Shown one piece after another: positions 7,946-44,004 of a stretch of 64,000 nucleotides of DNA (positions are counted from its first letter, which is position 1; the number at the start of each line of letters is the position of its first letter). The position numbers and the translations under genes were made by a program. Source of the DNA: Psychromonas aquimarina ATCC BAA-1526 (GTDB lineage Bacteria > Pseudomonadota > Gammaproteobacteria > Enterobacterales > Psychromonadaceae); NCBI RefSeq assembly GCF_000428725.1, contig NZ_KE386791.1, positions 186,001-250,000 on the forward strand. Reading direction: 5' to 3'. Below the pieces are notes generated by a model. It was not told the DNA's origin and ran no database searches. It worked only from the letters and a program-made list of their open reading frames with translations.

Positions 7946-8138
7946 AATAAGTTGTTTGTTTATGCCTGCCAGACTGTCAGTTTTTCTTTGTGCTTTAAGC
8001 TTATGGATATCTGTAAAGGTGTAATATAACATTATGTTATATATGGTGTTTGTGTCGTTTGTTATGAATAAGAAAGATACATAGCTAAACTTTAATCACA
8101 ATATACAGTCTAGATTACCTTAATGTTTATGAACATAA

Positions 8139-8154
8139 GTTTCCAAAAGGAAAC
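8139..8154. promoter_or_regulatory. Candidate operator, regulator side
   Basis: Perfect palindrome GTTTCC-AAAA-GGAAAC, about 112 bases upstream of the cupin-HTH regulator start. It matches the repeat on the gcvH side, which suggests that the same dimeric protein, most simply the regulator encoded next to it, binds both. Confidence 0.55.
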
Positions 8155-8266
8155 TTTATCCCGTCTTTGTGCTGCGGATCATGTTTTTAACAAGATTCAC
8201 CTTAATTATTGACTTAAATTTATGTGAGAATGAAAACAAATCAGAACTACATCAAGGAGGACAGAT

Positions 8267-8893
8267 ATGAGTGACGAGAGTCCACAGGATATTTATCCGT
8301 CGATGACTATCGCTTCAGAGCAGTCATCAGAAAAAATCGAACCTCTAAAGCTAGGGAAACGTTTAAAAGAGATACGTAAGTCATTTGGTTTGACTTTAGA
8401 GGAAGCGAGTCAGAAAACAGGACTGGCGCGTTCAACCCTGTCTAAGATTGAAAATGAACAGATCTCGCCGACATTTCAGGCGATGCAGAAATTAGCCAAC
8501 GGCCTGCAGGTGGATATTCCGCAGCTGTTTGCACCGCCGAAACAGGTAACAGCAACGGGACGCCGTGATATTACGCGTAGTGAAGAAGGTAAAGCACATC
8601 CGACTTCCACCTATGAACATGAATTGTTAGCAACGCAGCTGACCAACAAAAAAATGATGCCGTTTAAATCCCGGATCAGGGCGCGCAGTTTTGATGATTA
8701 CGGGGACTGGATCCGCCATGACGGTGAAGAGTTTCTACTGGTCTTACAGGGGGAGATAAACTTTTTTTCGGAATTTTACGAACCGGTTAATTTAAGTGAA
8801 GGTGATTCGGTTTATTACGATGCCAATATGGGACACATGTTAGCGTCAGTTAGTGAGGAAGATGCCCTGATCCTTTGGGTCACGGCTTCTTAA
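8267..8893 (+). CDS. XRE-family regulator with C-terminal cupin, probable gcv regulator
   Basis: 208-residue two-domain regulator. Residues about 28-82 form an HTH_3 (Cro/CI-like) domain (LKEIRKSFGLTLEEASQKTG, then LARSTLSKIENEQISPTFQ). Residues about 130-205 form a small cupin (RHDGEEFLLVLQGEINFF and LSEGDSVYYDANMGH). Proteins of this layout bind a small ligand in the cupin and often control the adjacent amino-acid catabolic operon. It is encoded just upstream of gcvT (65-base gap) and divergent from gcvH, as in vibrio gcv clusters, so control of glycine cleavage is the best guess. A strong ribosome site (AAGGAGG) precedes the ATG. The ligand is unknown. Confidence 0.9.
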   Translation: MSDESPQDIYPSMTIASEQSSEKIEPLKLGKRLKEIRKSFGLTLEEASQKTGLARSTLSKIENEQISPTFQAMQKLANGLQVDIPQLFAPPKQVTATGRRDITRSEEGKAHPTSTYEHELLATQLTNKKMMPFKSRIRARSFDDYGDWIRHDGEEFLLVLQGEINFFSEFYEPVNLSEGDSVYYDANMGHMLASVSEEDALILWVTAS

Positions 8894-8958
8894 TTTTTTA
8901 AACAGCAGTTAATCTGAATAATAAGGCGCAAACGCGCGCTCTATGGAGTATTAAACGT

Positions 8959-10077
8959 ATGTCTGAACAATTATTGGTTACGCCTCTGCATCTATTACAC
9001 ATTGAAGCGGGTGCTAAAATGGTGCCTTTTGCTGGTTATGATATGCCGGTGCAGTATGAACTTGGTGTACGTAAGGAACATCTGCACTGCCGCGCACAGG
9101 CGGGTTTATTTGATGTTTCACATATGGGCCAGTTACGCCTTCATGGTGAAAATGCAGCAGCTGCTGTGGAAGCGTTAGTACCCGTGGATATTATTGATTT
9201 ACCTGCCGGTAAGCAGCGTTATGCCTTTTTTACCAATGAGCAGGGCGGTATTAATGACGATCTGATGGTGACTAATTTTGGAGATCATCTGTTTGTGGTG
9301 GTTAATGCCGCCTGTAAAGAGCAGGATATAAAACATCTACAGGATAATCTGCCTGAAGATGTGGAACTTGAGATTATTGAAGACCGTGCATTATTAGCTC
9401 TGCAGGGCCCGCAGGCTGCTGAGGTATTAGCCCGCCTTAATCCGCTGGTCAGTGATATGGTGTTTATGGATGCTCAAAAAATCGAGCTGGCCGGGACTGA
9501 GTGTTATGTAAGCCGTTCTGGTTATACAGGTGAAGACGGTTACGAAATCTCTGTAGCGGCAGATGCCGCACAGCTGTTAGCGCGTCAGTTGTTAGCAAAT
9601 AGTGAAGTGGAATGGATTGGACTTGGAGCACGTGATTCGCTACGTCTTGAATGTGGTTTATGCCTGTACGGGCATGATCTTGATCCGACAACCACTCCTG
9701 TTGAAGCGAGTCTGCTCTGGGGCATTAGCCCTGTCCGTCGTACAGCCGGTGAGCGTGCCGGCGGTTTTCCGGGAGCCGATTTGATTTTAGAGCAGATCCG
9801 CACCAAGGAAATCGCCCGTAAACGTGTTGGTTTAATCGGACTTTCTAAAGCGCCGGTGCGTGAAGGCAGCCGCTTGTTTGACGCTGAAAATAATGAGATC
9901 GGCATAGTCACCAGCGGTACGTTTGGTCCGTCAAAAGGGGTACCGGTGGCCATGGCTTATGTACATACTGATTTTGCCGCTTTAGGCAGTGAAGTTTTTG
10001 CTGACGTACGAGGAAAAAAGCTGCCCATGACTGTAGAGAAAATGCCCTTTGTGCCGCAGCGGTATTACCGCGGTTGA
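8959..10077 (+). CDS. gcvT: Glycine cleavage system T protein (aminomethyltransferase)
   Basis: 372-residue T protein (family about 360-375). It transfers the one-carbon unit from the H-protein arm to tetrahydrofolate and releases ammonia. Recognisable segments are MVPFAGYDMPVQY, GLFDVSHMGQ, the folate-binding region SRSGYTGEDGYEI, and LGARDSLRLECGLCLYGHDL. The C-terminal barrel ends with VTSGTFGPS. It follows the cupin-HTH regulator, probably in one transcript, and is followed by a good terminator. Confidence 0.97.
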   Translation: MSEQLLVTPLHLLHIEAGAKMVPFAGYDMPVQYELGVRKEHLHCRAQAGLFDVSHMGQLRLHGENAAAAVEALVPVDIIDLPAGKQRYAFFTNEQGGINDDLMVTNFGDHLFVVVNAACKEQDIKHLQDNLPEDVELEIIEDRALLALQGPQAAEVLARLNPLVSDMVFMDAQKIELAGTECYVSRSGYTGEDGYEISVAADAAQLLARQLLANSEVEWIGLGARDSLRLECGLCLYGHDLDPTTTPVEASLLWGISPVRRTAGERAGGFPGADLILEQIRTKEIARKRVGLIGLSKAPVREGSRLFDAENNEIGIVTSGTFGPSKGVPVAMAYVHTDFAALGSEVFADVRGKKLPMTVEKMPFVPQRYYRG

Positions 10078-10105
10078 TAAGCTGCTGTTAGTTTAAAGCC
10101 TGAAT

Positions 10106-10137
10106 AAGTGTATTACCGGTCTGTAATACACTTTTGT
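10106..10137 (+). terminator. Terminator after gcvT
   Basis: AAGTGTATTA pairs with TAATACACTT (10 bases, 8-base loop) and is followed by TTGTATTTATT. Confidence 0.8.
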
Positions 10138-10182
10138 ATTTATTCATCCAGATCTTTTCTCTGATATTAATTCGGGGCTCCT

Positions 10183-10380
10183 ATGAATATGCTGGTTAGT
10201 TGTTTTGTTTGCTGCCCTTACTGTGGTGAAACAATCGAAATGGTCGTTGACTGTTCAGCTGCAGAGCAGAATTATATTGAAGACTGCCAGGTCTGCTGCT
10301 GTCCGATAACCGTATCTGTCACAGTACCTGAAAACCGGCCTCCGCTTGTTGTTGTCTCACATCAGGACGAGTCGTTTTAA
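10183..10380 (+). CDS. CPXCG-motif cysteine-rich small protein
   Basis: 65-residue protein with the family signature CPYCGE near the N-terminus and a second cysteine group (DCQVCCCPI) about 30 residues later. Together they look like a zinc ribbon. The segment AAEQNYIEDCQVCC is strongly typical of this widespread gammaproteobacterial family, whose function is unknown. It is a single gene lying between the gcvT terminator and a thioredoxin-fold lipoprotein. Confidence 0.85.
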   Translation: MNMLVSCFVCCPYCGETIEMVVDCSAAEQNYIEDCQVCCCPITVSVTVPENRPPLVVVSHQDESF

Positions 10381-10462
10381 TCGAATTGTAATTTTCGTTT
10401 TTTATCTGTTAAGAAAGTGATATTGTTGATTTTCATAACTTAATTACTTATCGGGACAAAAA

Positions 10463-11086
10463 ATGAAATTCCTCAGCAAACCATTATTTATTCTACTTTC
10501 TTCTGTACTGTTTCTGGCCGCCTGCTCTGAATCGAGCATTCCTGAAGAAGGCAAACAGTATGTGCAGCTTCCTGAAAACCTGCAGGATCAAGATTTAGCT
10601 CCGGTAACAGAAGTTTTTTCTCTAGGCTGCGGTCACTGCCGTAAGATGGAAGAGTTTATTCCCGTTATAAGTGAAAATGCCGATGCAGAGATTGGTAAAA
10701 TGCATATCGTCTTTAATCAGTCTGCGCAGTTTGCCGCTATGTTTTATTACGCCGCGGAAATGCAGTTAAAAGCAGTTCCGGATCATGCTTTTATGGAAGA
10801 TCTGTTTGCGGCTATGCAGATGTCTAAGGAAAGCTCTGCTGAAGAGAAAACAACGGCTATGTCAGAAGCATTTACCTCTCGTGGTCTGGTCAGCCCCTTT
10901 GATTACAATGAACAGCAGAGTGCAGAACTGATTGCTAAAGTTGAGGAAATAAGCCAGTTATCTCAGCGTAGTAAGATTGATGCGGTGCCTACTTTTGTTG
11001 TTAACGGCCGTTACCAGGTATTAGTTGCCGGGCATAAAGATCCTGCAAAAATTGCAGAAACTATTTCTTATCTTCTAGAAAAATAA
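10463..11086 (+). CDS. DsbA-like thiol:disulfide interchange lipoprotein
   Basis: 207 residues. A lipoprotein signal (LFLAAC, lipidated C21) should anchor it to a membrane on the periplasmic side. The thioredoxin-fold domain has the active site CGHC at residues 56-59, in a context like DsbA ([14 protein letters not shown]). The cis-proline loop [11 protein letters not shown] lies near residue 180, with a helical insertion between. DsbA itself is not lipidated and normally has CPHC, so this is a DsbA-like paralogue whose redox direction is uncertain. The last codons and the downstream DNA are repeated in tandem (see the repeat entry). Confidence 0.88.
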
Positions 11087-11360
11087 TTCAGCTGTGAATA
11101 GCAGATAGTGCGGGTGTTTTCTTTAAACAAAGTGATGCCCGTTGGTATTTTTAAATTCAGCATTTCAAATACAGACCCTGTCAATATGTCACAGAAACTA
11201 TTTCATATCTTCTAGAAAAATAATTCAGCTGTGAATAGCAGATAGTGCGGGTGTTTTCTTTAAATAAAGAAATGCCTGCTTGTTTGTTAAATTCACTATT
11301 TCTAATAAAGATACAGTCAGTAAGCTGCAGAAATCATTTTATCTCTTCTAGAAAATAATT
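11051..11360. repeat. 137-base tandem repeat covering the 3' end of the DsbA-like gene
   Basis: The segment beginning CAGAAA (11055), with TTCTAGAAAAATAATTCAG and AGATAGTGCGGGTGTTTTC, recurs 137 bases later (11192). A partial, more divergent third copy begins at 11328. Copy 1 contains the end of the lipoprotein gene (ETISYLLEK and stop). Copy 2 keeps the same short reading frame and stop, although it lies outside the gene. Copy 3 ends within TTCTAGAAAATAATTAAC. Confidence 0.85.
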
Positions 11361-38778: not shown

Positions 38779-38815
38779 AAACAGCAGTAAGTTTAAAATG
38801 TTTACTGCTGTTTTT
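38779..38815 (+). terminator. Terminator after tdh
   Basis: AAACAGCAGTAA pairs with TTACTGCTGTTT (12 bases, 11-base loop) and is followed by TTATTCC. It separates kbl-tdh from the molybdoenzyme operon. Confidence 0.85.
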
Positions 38816-38894: not shown

Positions 38895-38908
38895 TTGATC
38901 TTTATCAT
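38895..38908 (+). promoter_or_regulatory. FNR-like site upstream of the molybdoenzyme operon
   Basis: TTGAT-CTTT-ATCAT differs from the FNR consensus TTGAT-N4-ATCAA at one position. A weak -10-like TAATGT at 38932-38937 would place the site near -41.5, the class II activating position; a second candidate, TATAGT at 38948-38953, would place it near -58. The operon start is about 170 bases downstream. Confidence 0.5.
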
Positions 38909-39074: not shown

Positions 39075-41618
39075 ATGGACACAAAGGACGGTTGGAAACT
39101 ATCGAGGCGTCAGCTGCTGCTGGGTACAGGCAGTTTAGCGCTGGCTTCACTGTTTGCCCCTAAGCTGATTATGGCTGCGATGGCTAAGGCAGGTGTGGTG
39201 TATGCACCAGGCAGCGGCAAATGGGTGGGAACTACTTGTAACGGCTGTACCTCTTTCTGCGCTAAGCAGGTATATATTCAGGACGGCCGTGCGCTGCATA
39301 TTCGCGGTAACGAATATTCTAAAGTGCATGGTACGGCAAGCTGTCCGCGTCAGTATCTGGCACTGCAGGAGCTTTATGATCCGGATCGCGTACGCACACC
39401 TATGCTGCGCGGCAATCCGGAAAAAGGCCGCGGGATTGATCCGCAGTTTAAATCGATCAGCTGGGAAGAAGCGATCAAACTGATGGCAGACCAGTTTATG
39501 GCCCTGCGTGAACAAAATGAAACCCATCGTTATGTAGCACTTCGCGGCCGTTACTCCTATCTTAGTGATCTGCTCATTAAAAACTTTACTCAGGTGATGG
39601 GCTCGCCTAATGCCATTACCCACAGTGCCCTGTGTGCAGAAGCTGACAAATTAGGCAGTTTCTTTACCGAGGGTAACTGGGGATACCGTCAGTACGATAT
39701 TAAGGATACCCGTTATATCCTCTCCTTTGGTGTAGACCCTCTCAGTTCCAACCGTCAGGTTTCCTACTATTGTAAGGAGTGGGGTAATACCCTGGATCGT
39801 GCTCAGGTTGCGATTGTTGATCCGCGCTTCTCAGCGTCTGCCGCTAAGGCCGATGAGTGGCTGCCTGTCGTTCCGGGGCAGGATGCTGCGCTGGGTCTGG
39901 CACTGGCGCATCAGGTTATGGTAAACGGCGGCTGGCACCGCCCCTTTGTCGGTGACTTTGTTGACGGAAAAAATCGTTTTATTGCCGGTAGTGAGGTCGA
40001 GCCTGATAGTTTCAAAGAACAGCATACCCTGGGACTGGTTGAATGGTGGAATTTAGAGCTTAAGGATCGTACTCCGGAATGGGCTGCCGAATTATGCGGT
40101 ATTAAAGCAGAGCAGATACGGCGTATTGCAGTCAAACTAGCCGATGCTGCTCCAAAAGTACAGATCTGGCGTTCCCGTGGTGCTCAGATGCAGCATAGAG
40201 GCGGCTATACCGCGATCGCCCTGCATGCACTTAATGGTTTACTGGGCAGTATTGATCAGGAAGGCGGGGTGCTTAAGTGGGCTTCGGTTCCTCTAGGAAA
40301 GATGCCGTCTTCTAAGAAATATGTTGATGAGGTCGGTTCGCACGGCCTGAAAATGGAGAAAATAGACCGCCGCGGACGTCTGGAATATCCTGCTCTTAAA
40401 AAAGGTAAAAGCGGGGGAGGTGTGGTTACAGCCGCGGTTGCTGAGAGTATTCTTAGTGAAGACCCTTATCTGCCGGAGTTTGTACTTGGCTATTTTAATA
40501 ACTTTACTTTTTCGGCACCAGGCGGGCAGCAGTGGGAAAAAGCCCTTAAGAAAGTCTCATTTGTCACCCATCTCACCACTAATATCAGTGAATTCAGTTA
40601 TTACGCGGATCTGATTCTTCCGGCGCCGCATTTTATGTTTGAACGCTGGGGAATTCAGAAAACCGCAGGTAACCGCTACACCCAGGTGTCCATTAGTCAG
40701 CCTGCGGTAAAACGCCTGGGTATGTCAGTTGAAGATGAGTGCGGCCTGCCGTGGTTATTAGCTGAGGAATTAGCGAAGCGGGGTTTTGAAAATCCGCTTA
40801 ACTACCTTAAAACTGAATTTAAGGATCCGGAAACGGGCAGAGAGCCGACCAGTGCAGATGAAGTCGCCCTGTATGCAACTAAAATACTCACGCAGACGTT
40901 CTGGGATCCGGCTAAATATAAGGAAGGGGATCACCTCAGCGGCTGGCAGGAGTTTATGGAGAAAGGCATCTGGAATTCCAAACCGTATGCATTCCGTAAA
41001 CGCTGGAGCCATATGAAAACGAAGAGCAAAAAGTTTGAGTTTTACAGTGAAACGCTCAAATACGCGCTGCAGAAGCACGCTAAAAAACACCATACTGATG
41101 TCGATGGAGTAATGCAGGCTACCGGTTATTTAGCACGCGGCGAGCTGGCTTTTATCCCCCATTACGAGACTCCGTACCGCTTTGGTGATGAAAGTAAATT
41201 CCCGATGTTATTTGTTGATTATAAGTCACGCTTAAACCGCGAGGGCCGTTCGGCAAACACTGCCTGGTACCAGTACAATCTGGATATTGATCCCGGATCA
41301 CACAAACTTGCTGATGCGGCTAAACTCAATCCCTTAGATGCGCAGAAGCTGGGAATTAGTGACGGAGATACCATCCGTATCACCTCGCTGCAGGGAAGTA
41401 TCACTTGTCAGGCGGCTCTGTTCGAAGGCGTTCGGCCCGGTACCGTTGCTAAAGCTTTTGGTCAGGGGCATTGGGCCTATGGCAGGACAGCATCGCAGCA
41501 GTTTGGTAAAACCCCCTTCGGCGGCAATAATAACGAATTACTACCACCGGTATATGAGCAATTGTCTGGATCCTCTGCCTTTTACGGTCAGATTGGTGTC
41601 CGGGTAGAGAAAGTCTAG
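39075..41618 (+). CDS. arrA: Molybdopterin oxidoreductase, probable respiratory arsenate reductase catalytic subunit
   Basis: 847 residues with a twin-arginine signal (SRRQLLLGTG). The 4Fe-4S site C-x2-C-x3-C-x27-C spans Cys55 to Cys90. The likely molybdenum ligand is Cys187 in THSALCAEADK. With an offset of six, residues reported around arsenate in Shewanella ANA-3 ArrA (from memory R165, Y166, H189, C193, K198, Y210) line up with R159, Y160, H183, C187, K192 and Y204. Segments targeted by published arrA primers recur: ISWEEAI, FFTEGNWGY and WWNLELKDRTPEW (324-336). Length fits ArrA (854). ArxA (arsenite oxidase) or a close polysulfide/selenium relative cannot be excluded. It is the first gene of a three-gene operon. 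Confidence 0.8.
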   Translation: MDTKDGWKLSRRQLLLGTGSLALASLFAPKLIMAAMAKAGVVYAPGSGKWVGTTCNGCTSFCAKQVYIQDGRALHIRGNEYSKVHGTASCPRQYLALQELYDPDRVRTPMLRGNPEKGRGIDPQFKSISWEEAIKLMADQFMALREQNETHRYVALRGRYSYLSDLLIKNFTQVMGSPNAITHSALCAEADKLGSFFTEGNWGYRQYDIKDTRYILSFGVDPLSSNRQVSYYCKEWGNTLDRAQVAIVDPRFSASAAKADEWLPVVPGQDAALGLALAHQVMVNGGWHRPFVGDFVDGKNRFIAGSEVEPDSFKEQHTLGLVEWWNLELKDRTPEWAAELCGIKAEQIRRIAVKLADAAPKVQIWRSRGAQMQHRGGYTAIALHALNGLLGSIDQEGGVLKWASVPLGKMPSSKKYVDEVGSHGLKMEKIDRRGRLEYPALKKGKSGGGVVTAAVAESILSEDPYLPEFVLGYFNNFTFSAPGGQQWEKALKKVSFVTHLTTNISEFSYYADLILPAPHFMFERWGIQKTAGNRYTQVSISQPAVKRLGMSVEDECGLPWLLAEELAKRGFENPLNYLKTEFKDPETGREPTSADEVALYATKILTQTFWDPAKYKEGDHLSGWQEFMEKGIWNSKPYAFRKRWSHMKTKSKKFEFYSETLKYALQKHAKKHHTDVDGVMQATGYLARGELAFIPHYETPYRFGDESKFPMLFVDYKSRLNREGRSANTAWYQYNLDIDPGSHKLADAAKLNPLDAQKLGISDGDTIRITSLQGSITCQAALFEGVRPGTVAKAFGQGHWAYGRTASQQFGKTPFGGNNNELLPPVYEQLSGSSAFYGQIGVRVEKV

Positions 41619-41628
41619 GAGGCTGACA

Positions 41629-42327
41629 ATGCGTTATGGAATGGTAATCGATCAACAAAAATGTGTGGGTTGTGCCGGTTGTGTTTTCGCCTGTAAAGCT
41701 GAAAATCATACGCCGCCCGAGATTAACTGGTGTGACAAGATAATTACAAGCAGCGGTCAATTTCCAGATGTTCGTTTTGAATATCTGTCAACTATGTGTA
41801 ATCACTGCGACGATGCTCCTTGTGTTAAAGGCTGCCCGACACAGGCGATGCATAAAGGAGAGGGAGGATTGACTCTTCACGAACAGGAAAAGTGTATCGG
41901 CTGTAAAGCCTGTATGGAGAATTGTCCCTACGGAGTGATAAGCTTTAACTGGCAGCGCCCGCATCAGGAATGGCAGGAAAATAAAGGGCTGGCCGCTGGT
42001 ACTTTTACGCCGTCGGTTATGCTTGCAGAGGCAGGCGGAGAAGGCAGTCCGCTTAGTAATCCCGAACGCGGCGGCAGCTACCCGTTAATGCGGTCGCGCG
42101 GCACGGTTGAAAAATGTAACTTCTGCGACCATCGACTTAAAGTCGGGCTGAATCCAGTTTGCGTGGACGCCTGTCCTTCGAACGCCCGGGTAGTAGGTGA
42201 TCTTGATGATCCCAATAGTGAAGTTTCGATGCTGATCCGCAAGTATGACGGCAAGCCGCTTAAACCAGAGCTGGGTACCGGAAGCAAGGTGTTTTATATC
42301 CGCCGTTATACTCCGGAAAACCGCTGA
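41629..42327 (+). CDS. arrB: Four-cluster ferredoxin subunit of the molybdoenzyme (ArrB-like)
   Basis: 232 residues (ArrB of Shewanella 234). There are four cysteine groups for four 4Fe-4S clusters: CVGCAGCVFAC, CNHCDDAPCVKGC, CIGCKACMENCPYG and CNFCDHRL with CVDAC. It carries electrons between the membrane quinol-oxidising anchor and the catalytic subunit. There is no signal peptide, as expected for a subunit exported with its TAT partner. It starts 10 bases after the catalytic gene with AGGAGG before the ATG, so translation is tightly linked. Confidence 0.85.
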   Translation: MRYGMVIDQQKCVGCAGCVFACKAENHTPPEINWCDKIITSSGQFPDVRFEYLSTMCNHCDDAPCVKGCPTQAMHKGEGGLTLHEQEKCIGCKACMENCPYGVISFNWQRPHQEWQENKGLAAGTFTPSVMLAEAGGEGSPLSNPERGGSYPLMRSRGTVEKCNFCDHRLKVGLNPVCVDACPSNARVVGDLDDPNSEVSMLIRKYDGKPLKPELGTGSKVFYIRRYTPENR

Positions 42328-42339
42328 TAGGAGAGAAAC

Positions 42340-43371
42340 ATGAAAACTGCAAACTTCAATAAAATGTTGTTGGCGCTGTCTGCTGCCGGATTATTGTTCG
42401 GGGGGTATTTTGCTTTAATGGAATGGTTTGTCGGTCCAATGTTTGTGACCAATGACGCTCTGTTCTGGACATTACCCCTGGTAGCCTACATATTCCTGGC
42501 CTTGACCAGCACAGGTATATCTATCCTAATGACAGCAGGTGAGCTGTTGAACAACAAGGCTGTTATAGCACACAAGCCGGTCTTATTGACTGCAGCCCTG
42601 TCTCTGCTGATAGGTGCTTTTGCCGCCTTGACTGCTGAAATGGGTTCTCCGCTGCATGTTGTCTGGCTGCTGTTCAGCCCTAACCTGAGTTCACCTATCT
42701 GGTGGATGGGAACACTGTATGCCGTGGAACTGCTGCTGCTTGGTATTAAATATTACGCCTTGCTGCGCGGCCGGCCGCTGGGTTCTGAGTTGTGGTTAAC
42801 CTCAGCTGCATTGTGCGTGGCCGTGGCCGCCGCTTTAGTATTAGGCAGTGTATTCGGAACGGCAGTCGGCCGTACTGGTTATCAAGGTGCGGATGCGTCG
42901 GTGCTTACCCTGCTTTGTGCTCTGGCAAGCGGTATGAGCTTAGCGCCGCTGCTGTTTAAAGAACAGGCGCGGGAAGTGCTGCAGCTGCCCGGCAGAAGCA
43001 TGCTTGCCGGCCTGGCGTTGTTTTTGTTTACCCTGTATTTGTATTCTTCCCGCAGTACGGTTGTGGCGGAAATAGTCTGGGTGCAGTTGTGGATGCCGCT
43101 GCTGCTGCTGGGCGCATTACTTGCTTATAAAGTAAAACCGGCACTGAGTGCGCTGATCGCTTTGCCGACTGTGCTGCTGGTGGAGTTGTTCTTTGTTATT
43201 CAGGGACAGATGCAGGTATTAGGTCCGAAACAAACCTGGTTAGGTGCGGTGCAGAGCTATATGCCCAATACAGCTGAAATAGCGATTCTTATATTCGGCT
43301 GCTCCGTTGCTTATCTTTGCTTCTTCTTATTTAACCGGCTGGCACTACGTCCGGGCGGCTCTGCAGACTAA
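42340..43371 (+). CDS. arrC: NrfD/PsrC-type membrane anchor (ArrC-like)
   Basis: 343-residue inner-membrane protein with eight or nine hydrophobic helices. The pattern of the NrfD/PsrC family is visible: SGISILMTAGELL-like helix 2-3 region (STGISILMTAGELLNNK), AEMGSPLHVVWLLFSPNLSS (the quinol-site region) followed by PIWWMGTLYAVE. It oxidises menaquinol or ubiquinol and passes electrons to the ferredoxin subunit. It starts 12 bases after that gene. Arsenate reductase operons with an NrfD-type ArrC are known outside Shewanella; PsrC-type anchors also serve polysulfide reductases, so this subunit does not decide the substrate. Confidence 0.82.
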   Translation: MKTANFNKMLLALSAAGLLFGGYFALMEWFVGPMFVTNDALFWTLPLVAYIFLALTSTGISILMTAGELLNNKAVIAHKPVLLTAALSLLIGAFAALTAEMGSPLHVVWLLFSPNLSSPIWWMGTLYAVELLLLGIKYYALLRGRPLGSELWLTSAALCVAVAAALVLGSVFGTAVGRTGYQGADASVLTLLCALASGMSLAPLLFKEQAREVLQLPGRSMLAGLALFLFTLYLYSSRSTVVAEIVWVQLWMPLLLLGALLAYKVKPALSALIALPTVLLVELFFVIQGQMQVLGPKQTWLGAVQSYMPNTAEIAILIFGCSVAYLCFFLFNRLALRPGGSAD

Positions 43372-43393
43372 ATGCCGTGAACAGCAGTGAGTA

Positions 43394-43426
43394 AAACCGG
43401 TGCGGCCTGGCTGCGCCGGTTTTTGT
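43394..43426 (+). terminator. Terminator of the molybdoenzyme operon
   Basis: AAAACCGG pairs with CCGGTTTT, extended by further pairs inward, followed by TTGTTTATG, about 25 bases past the stop of the anchor gene. Confidence 0.8.
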
Positions 43427-43524: not shown

Positions 43525-44004
43525 ATGCTTATAAGTAAAAATTCAGTTGTACAGTTTCATTATGTTTTAAGTGAAGCAGATCAGGAGCTTGAAAACAGTT
43601 TCCAGAGTGAGCCGTTAGTTTATCTGCATGGTCATGACGGTCTGTTTGAAACCTTAGAAAAACAACTCGAAGGTAAAACCAGCGGTGACAAACTGCAGGT
43701 GACACTTAAACCTGAGCAGGCTTACGGTCAGCGTAGAGAAGGTGGTCTGCAGCGTATTCCAATTAAACATCTGCAGGGGGCTAAGGTCTGGAAGCCGGGT
43801 ATGACAGCTGTTGTTGAATCAAATCAAGGCCGTCAGCAGGTAACAATCGTAAAAGTTGGGCGTTTTAATGCCGACTGCGATTTAAACCATCCCTTTGCCG
43901 GTAAAACATTAACCTTTGTCATTGAGATTGTATCGGTACGTGCTGCAACAGATGAAGAGATCAGCCATGGTCATGTGCATGGCGCCGGCGGCTGCGGGCA
44001 TTAG
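43525..44004 (+). CDS. FKBP-type peptidyl-prolyl isomerase, SlyD-like
   Basis: 159 residues from the ATG giving MLISKNSVVQFHY. The longer frame would run through the promoter and the preceding terminator. It shows the SlyD/FkpB layout: FKBP half-domain with VQFHYVLSEADQELENS and PLVYLHGHDGLFETLEKQLEG, an inserted flap at about 70-125 (TLKPEQAYGQRREGGLQRIP), then NHPFAGKTLTFVIEI. The C-terminus HGHVHGAGGCGH is a short metal-binding tail like that of SlyD, though much shorter. It is a cytoplasmic folding helper and possible nickel/zinc handler. Confidence 0.88.
   Translation: MLISKNSVVQFHYVLSEADQELENSFQSEPLVYLHGHDGLFETLEKQLEGKTSGDKLQVTLKPEQAYGQRREGGLQRIPIKHLQGAKVWKPGMTAVVESNQGRQQVTIVKVGRFNADCDLNHPFAGKTLTFVIEIVSVRAATDEEISHGHVHGAGGCGH

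Follow-up and report, generated by a model that had tools for sequence, protein, structure and literature searches.

The locus considered here raises the question of whether three consecutive genes of Psychromonas aquimarina ATCC BAA-1526, arranged in the order A-B-C and without neighbouring ars genes, encode a genuine respiratory arsenate reductase. They lie at positions 39075-43371 of a 64-kb window (the whole stretch of DNA analysed, NZ_KE386791.1 186,001-250,000; positions count from its start). An initial annotation had proposed an arrABC respiratory arsenate reductase operon and left it open whether this represents a distinct marine Arr lineage or a sister enzyme with another oxyanion or a sulfur substrate. 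The operon proposed there is borne out by our analysis, in which open reading frames (ORFs), motifs, pocket, tree and fold agree. Taken together, the sequence with its motif and pocket, the phylogeny, the fold and the genomic context make it very likely that arrABC encodes a periplasmic, membrane-anchored quinol:arsenate oxidoreductase.

The catalytic subunit, ArrA, scores 1255 bits with the NCBIfam ArrA model, 244 bits with PhsA and 71 bits with TtrA. Among solved structures it matches 6cz7_A, the crystallised ArrA of Shewanella sp. ANA-3, at 57% identity along its entire length; the score of 1113 bits is far above chance level, and the family next in rank, that of the Thermus polysulfide/thiosulfate reductase, reaches 120 bits. 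The primer-target segments claimed for this protein are all present (ISWEEA, FFTEGNWGY and WWNLELKDRTPEW, starting at residues 128, 196 and 324, respectively), as is the C-x2-C-x3-C-x27-C site, which spans residues 55-90. Residues R159, Y160, H183, C187, K192 and Y204 align with R168, Y169, H192, C196, K201 and Y213 of the ANA-3 ORF used. The latter appears to begin three codons 5′ of the usual start, which would give R165, Y166, H189, C193, K198 and Y210; once this offset is allowed for, the claim of pocket residues at matching spacing, shifted by six, holds. Work by Glasser and colleagues in 2018 is said to describe the role of these ArrA residues in the pocket. All six (RYHCKY) are the same in every ArrA among 82 aligned proteins, including the one in the window, and the RGRY motif at 157-160 is identical in all aligned ArrA. 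ArxA, an arsenic family related to ArrA within one superfamily, has a different motif and pocket. XGRGWG is found in all four ArxA compared (L109, L117-L119; about 30% identity), and two of the six pocket positions are G and M in L109, beside which an NrfD-like gene lies. It is by (R/K)GRY versus XGRGWG that ArrA and ArxA are told apart (PMC6549141). The window ArrA possesses the features used as membership tests for ArrA, namely (R/K)GRY, the six pocket residues and a twin-arginine translocation (Tat) signal together with the [4Fe-4S] site. Finally, the AlphaFold model of ArrA (alignment of 26 sequences; predicted local distance difference test, pLDDT, 87) superposes on 6cz7_A at 1.3 Å, with template modelling (TM) scores of 0.94/0.98, while the next-best fold, a polysulfide reductase, gives TM 0.67/0.77 and 20% identity. 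Structure modelling, one of the checks proposed at the outset, places the predicted fold closest to 6cz7_A, with the pocket kept in the alignment.

Phylogenetic position was analysed in trees of 55, 40 and 32 proteins, which included ArxA and, in the 32-protein tree, also PhsA and TtrA. The window ArrA belongs to a fully supported clade with the enzymes of Photobacterium obscurum (85% identity), a Neptunomonas metagenome-assembled genome (MAG; 82%), an Aestuariirhabdus MAG (80%), P. ganghwense (74%) and Vibrio (62%). This clade sits inside ArrA, and ArxA, PhsA and TtrA form separate clades. The split from all four ArxA has 100/100 support; the ArrA node with PhsA and TtrA added, where the outgroup branches are long, has 85/98. 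The clade is possibly sister to the Shewanella/Ferrimonas/Marinobacter type, a position that is not firm (84/54 and 86/80). An ArxA identity is ruled out by the RGRY motif and the tree, and a PsrA, PhsA or TtrA identity by the NCBIfam scores and the tree; with ArxA, PhsA and TtrA as references, the window ArrA is nested in ArrA and a placement among sulfur reductases was not found. The option of a sister enzyme acting on a sulfur substrate therefore has both tree and scores against it, whereas that of a distinct marine Arr lineage gains from tree position, motif and pocket, structure match and the arsenic genes beside two clade relatives (see below).

The partner subunits were also as predicted. 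ArrB contains four 4-Cys motifs with 16 cluster cysteines and is 60% identical to ANA-3 ArrB, although its NCBIfam ArrB score remains below the cut-off of 450 bits; motifs and ArrB matches agree with a ferredoxin subunit of ArrB length and four clusters. ArrC scores just under the Pfam NrfD cut-off of 25.8 bits, and its family profile matches that of the Desulfobacterota-type ArrC with probability 100 and an E-value of 1.2e-41, which bears out an NrfD-type anchor after ArrB. The orders described for arr genes are arrAB or arrCAB (PMC2500031), a criterion of 2008 that is descriptive, not defining. The A-B-C order is unlike either, and in this respect the initial annotation rightly called it untypical; however, A-B-C with an NrfD-type anchor is frequent among the Desulfobacterota arr loci compared. 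Such ArrABC of Desulfobacterota and relatives (for example L021, L026 and L029) also share about 55% ArrA identity with the window, but their ArrC is only about 30% identical and they form a separate clade. ANA-3 ArrAB (6cz7) shares the fold, the pocket residues, RGRY, the Tat signal and a four-cluster ArrB, and differs in its clade, in having adjacent ars genes and in having no NrfD-type C subunit adjoining arr; in that organism CymA serves in place of the C subunit (PMC2500031). Within the clade, P. obscurum, P. ganghwense and the Neptunomonas and Aestuariirhabdus MAGs (74-85% ArrA identity) have the A-B-C order and a homologous anchor. In contrast, Vibrio maerlii, Vibrio sp. PID17_43 and G860, which share the clade or the identity range (62-63%), have an ArrB extended by fusion with a second ferredoxin module and, in place of NrfD, a protein of the cytochrome b561 type (L012, L013:10558-12686; L170:10893-13011). 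A separate observation concerns Fuchsiella, where a second, distant molybdoenzyme/ferredoxin pair (L080:3269-6186 and 7998-11286; 24% and 30% identity) lies 5′ of arrAB.

The substrate, direction, electron route and regulation of the enzyme are predictions, and the scheme would be the following. ArrA would fold around its molybdenum cofactor in the cytoplasm and then cross the membrane together with ArrB via Tat, as its SRR motif suggests. The NrfD-type ArrC would take two electrons from quinol, and ArrB would relay them via its four [4Fe-4S] clusters to the ArrA cluster and the molybdenum-bis(pyranopterin guanine dinucleotide) site, where arsenate would be reduced to arsenite in the periplasm; an unlinked Acr3 would presumably remove the arsenite. 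Such a scheme, from quinol through ArrC and ArrB to ArrA, is given for arsenate reduction by ArrABC (PMC2500031, PMC8076601).

Several observations weigh against an arsenate reductase at this locus: the window ArrA does not reach the curated ArrA cut-off of NCBIfam NF041714 (1600 bits); substitutions adjoin its iron-sulfur cluster; no ars homologue is found in the 104 kb formed by the window and its two 20-kb flanks; and the sister species has lost arrA, so that the function is dispensable there. As to the first, NF041714 gives scores of 1097-1309 to nine further ArrA, which come from Desulfobacterota, Bacillota, Planctomycetota, Chloroflexota, Pseudomonadota and a methanotrophic archaeon. In the tested set only ANA-3 passes (1769), 9 of 10 ArrA being excluded, and ArxA reaches 434. 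The cut-off, an annotation threshold and not a biological definition, delimits a Shewanella-narrow subgroup rather than the whole ArrA family. Since most other ArrA tested also miss it, missing it says little against membership. As to the substitutions, 204 columns reach a conservation of at least 97% among the other ArrA, and 187 of them still do when the clade is added. The consistent clade-specific replacements are four (Q56N, W61F, E557G and W783F), none of them in the pocket; Q56N and W61F stand beside cluster cysteines and could alter redox behaviour.

The arsenic genes require a closer look. The description "without ars genes" is correct for the 64 kb, where neither an ars nor a torD gene was found, and for the 104 kb, but not for the genome: checks covering acr3, the ArsC family and TorD, an extension that had itself been proposed, located, on another contig (contig 8), an acr3 immediately behind a gene of the ArsR family. 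This unlinked acr3 is background resistance. As acr3 is above cut-off in 21 of the 24 genus genomes, Acr3 is ruled out as a marker acquired together with arr, and its distance from arr is not evidence against an arsenic role. An ArsC on C4 passes TIGR00014 and is adjoined by an Hda-like gene, an arrangement similar to that of the housekeeping yfgD-hda locus in E. coli; that this ArsC is a dedicated arsenic resistance is doubtful. Among the clade relatives, whose surroundings are more informative, the P. ganghwense arrABC (L011:823-17891) lies, in contrast to the window operon, inside an arsenic island with an ArsJ-type glyceraldehyde-3-phosphate dehydrogenase, pstSCAB-phoU, ArsR regulators, an ArsE-family thioredoxin-like protein, two permeases and Acr3, and Vibrio sp. 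PID17_43 (L012) has ArsD and ArsA 3′ of arr. In P. obscurum (L009:1692-7645) nitrous oxide reductase (nos) genes stand directly 5′ of arr, an arrangement neutral for an arsenic role. The missing TorD-like chaperone, although real, is not unusual: none is found beside arr in any clade member examined, and the torD-like gene is variable across arr clusters (PMC6549141).

The absence of ars genes within 104 kb and the substitutions adjoining the cluster would also suit an enzyme that is Arr by descent but has another oxyanion, most plausibly antimonate, as its main natural acceptor, with arsenate as a side substrate. PMC11521347 cites ArrAB as an Sb(V) respiratory reductase, and the ANA-3 study appears in the reference list of PMC10100899. 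We consider this unlikely, given that the pocket is the same as in arsenate-reducing ArrA, that clade relatives lie among arsenic-specific genes and that PMC10100899 attributes to ArxA/ArrA a high specificity for arsenic oxyanions.

The features of the operon are collected in Table 1. The genes are separated by 10 bases (arrA-arrB) and 12 bases (arrB-arrC). The threonine-degradation genes kbl-tdh lie on the 5′ side and a SlyD-like peptidyl-prolyl isomerase gene, with its own start at 43525, on the 3′ side; hairpin terminators after kbl-tdh and after arrC make arrABC a separate transcription unit.

Table 1. Features of the arrABC locus of P. aquimarina, in window coordinates.
Feature	Position	Strand	Remarks
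Terminator-like hairpin after tdh	38779..38813	+	14-pair stem, T tail; upstream transcription-unit limit
FNR-like box TTGATCTTTATCAT	38895..38908	+	167-180 bp 5′ of arrA; one mismatch to TTGAT-N4-ATCAA
arrA, molybdopterin catalytic subunit, 847 aa, twin-arginine N-terminus SRRQLLLG	39075..41618	+	Family, structure, tree
Codons of the C-x2-C-x3-C-x27-C [4Fe-4S] site, C55-C90	39237..39344	+	Cys here in nearly all aligned ArrA
Codons of R159-Y160 in RGRY (ArrA signature)	39549..39554	+	Same in all aligned ArrA
Codons of H183, C187 (Mo ligand position), K192 and Y204, arsenate pocket	39621..39686	+	Alignment
arrB, iron-sulfur subunit, 232 aa, four 4Fe-4S motifs	41629..42327	+	NCBIfam ArrB 346 bits; 6cz7_B 323 bits
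arrC, NrfD-type membrane anchor, 343 aa	42340..43371	+	Pfam NrfD 22.5 bits; profile match to Desulfobacterota-type ArrC
Terminator-like hairpin after arrC	43393..43423	+	14-pair stem, 8 G-C, T tail; downstream limit

A TTGAT-N4-ATCAA box with 0-1 mismatches is found at -136 to -180 from arrA in 6 of 7 clade members, and an eighth member has a perfect box 5′ of arrA (7 of 8 in total). The three Vibrio operons and three of the four A-B-C relatives named above carry it. The chance of such a box is 0.02-0.05 per region, and it occurs in 3 of 26 other ArrA loci; these figures are to be read knowing that the FNR idea was formed after the first site had been seen and that two of the Vibrio copies have nearly identical genes. 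The operon is probably under FNR control and induced at low oxygen, the box being good, though not conclusive, evidence. CRP control was rejected, as the only CRP site has two mismatches and overlaps the FNR-like box.

Outside this species and one sister, ArrA has no match in the 22 other same-genus genomes; its gene is present in only 5 of 330 Vibrionaceae genomes, and a search of the plasmid collection for close relatives gave no match at 1e-100. In the nearest sister species (G016, L146), arrB (95%) and arrC (87%) are kept between tdh and the isomerase gene, both open, and arrA is reduced to its last 82 codons, joined to the ORF of an IS200-type transposase (Y1_Tnp; L146:11869-12413). In the two genomes next closest to these, the site is occupied by two unrelated genes. 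Since arrBC and the arrA remnant occupy the same site in the sister, arrABC had probably been gained by the time of the ancestor of both species and has probably been broken once since, in the sister. Because host families are mixed inside the clade, we infer that the clade spread by horizontal transfer, and the operon is probably horizontally acquired and dispensable. The remnant in the sister and the lack of ArrA in the other genomes of the genus might also mean that the window operon is intact yet silent or decaying. This is quite improbable in view of three open full-length frames, the retained catalytic residues, the terminators and the FNR-like box.

Very improbable, too, is that the enzyme works backwards and oxidises arsenite anaerobically, like Arx. 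It is true that ArxA is an arsenic family akin to ArrA and that Arx operons also have an arxC gene (PMC6549141); nevertheless, the window ArrA has RGRY instead of XGRGWG and Y160 and K192 where L109 has G and M, it is separated from all four ArxA with full support, which already refutes family membership, and no arxB2, arxD or arxXSR neighbours were found. A polysulfide, thiosulfate or tetrathionate reductase, suggested by the A-B-C order with membrane anchor of psr/phs operons (PMC2500031), has a negligible probability and is refuted by the tree, in which PhsA and TtrA form distant, separate clades; the low PhsA and TtrA scores and the commonness of the same order in Desulfobacterota arr loci also stand against it.

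The quinol:arsenate oxidoreductase proposed here comes from a clade whose enzyme is of the ordinary ArrA kind, a little-noticed branch in a few marine Psychromonas, Photobacterium, Vibrio and Oceanospirillales-type bacteria; we found no published arr of Psychromonas, Photobacterium or Vibrio in the open-licence literature. A broader picture, which we put forward only tentatively, is that of a horizontally shared marine gammaproteobacterial Arr lineage, FNR-controlled and often outside an arsenic-resistance island, that swaps anchors (NrfD, or cytochrome b561 with a fused ferredoxin) and might serve low-level marine arsenate or antimonate rather than arsenic-rich sites. The curated name threshold of NF041714 misses most non-Shewanella ArrA tested. 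By sequence, respiratory arsenate reduction would extend to Psychromonas and the Vibrionaceae, and the clade offers a testable set, in which a single catalytic lineage is combined with two types of anchor and the sister species serves as a natural arrA knockout.

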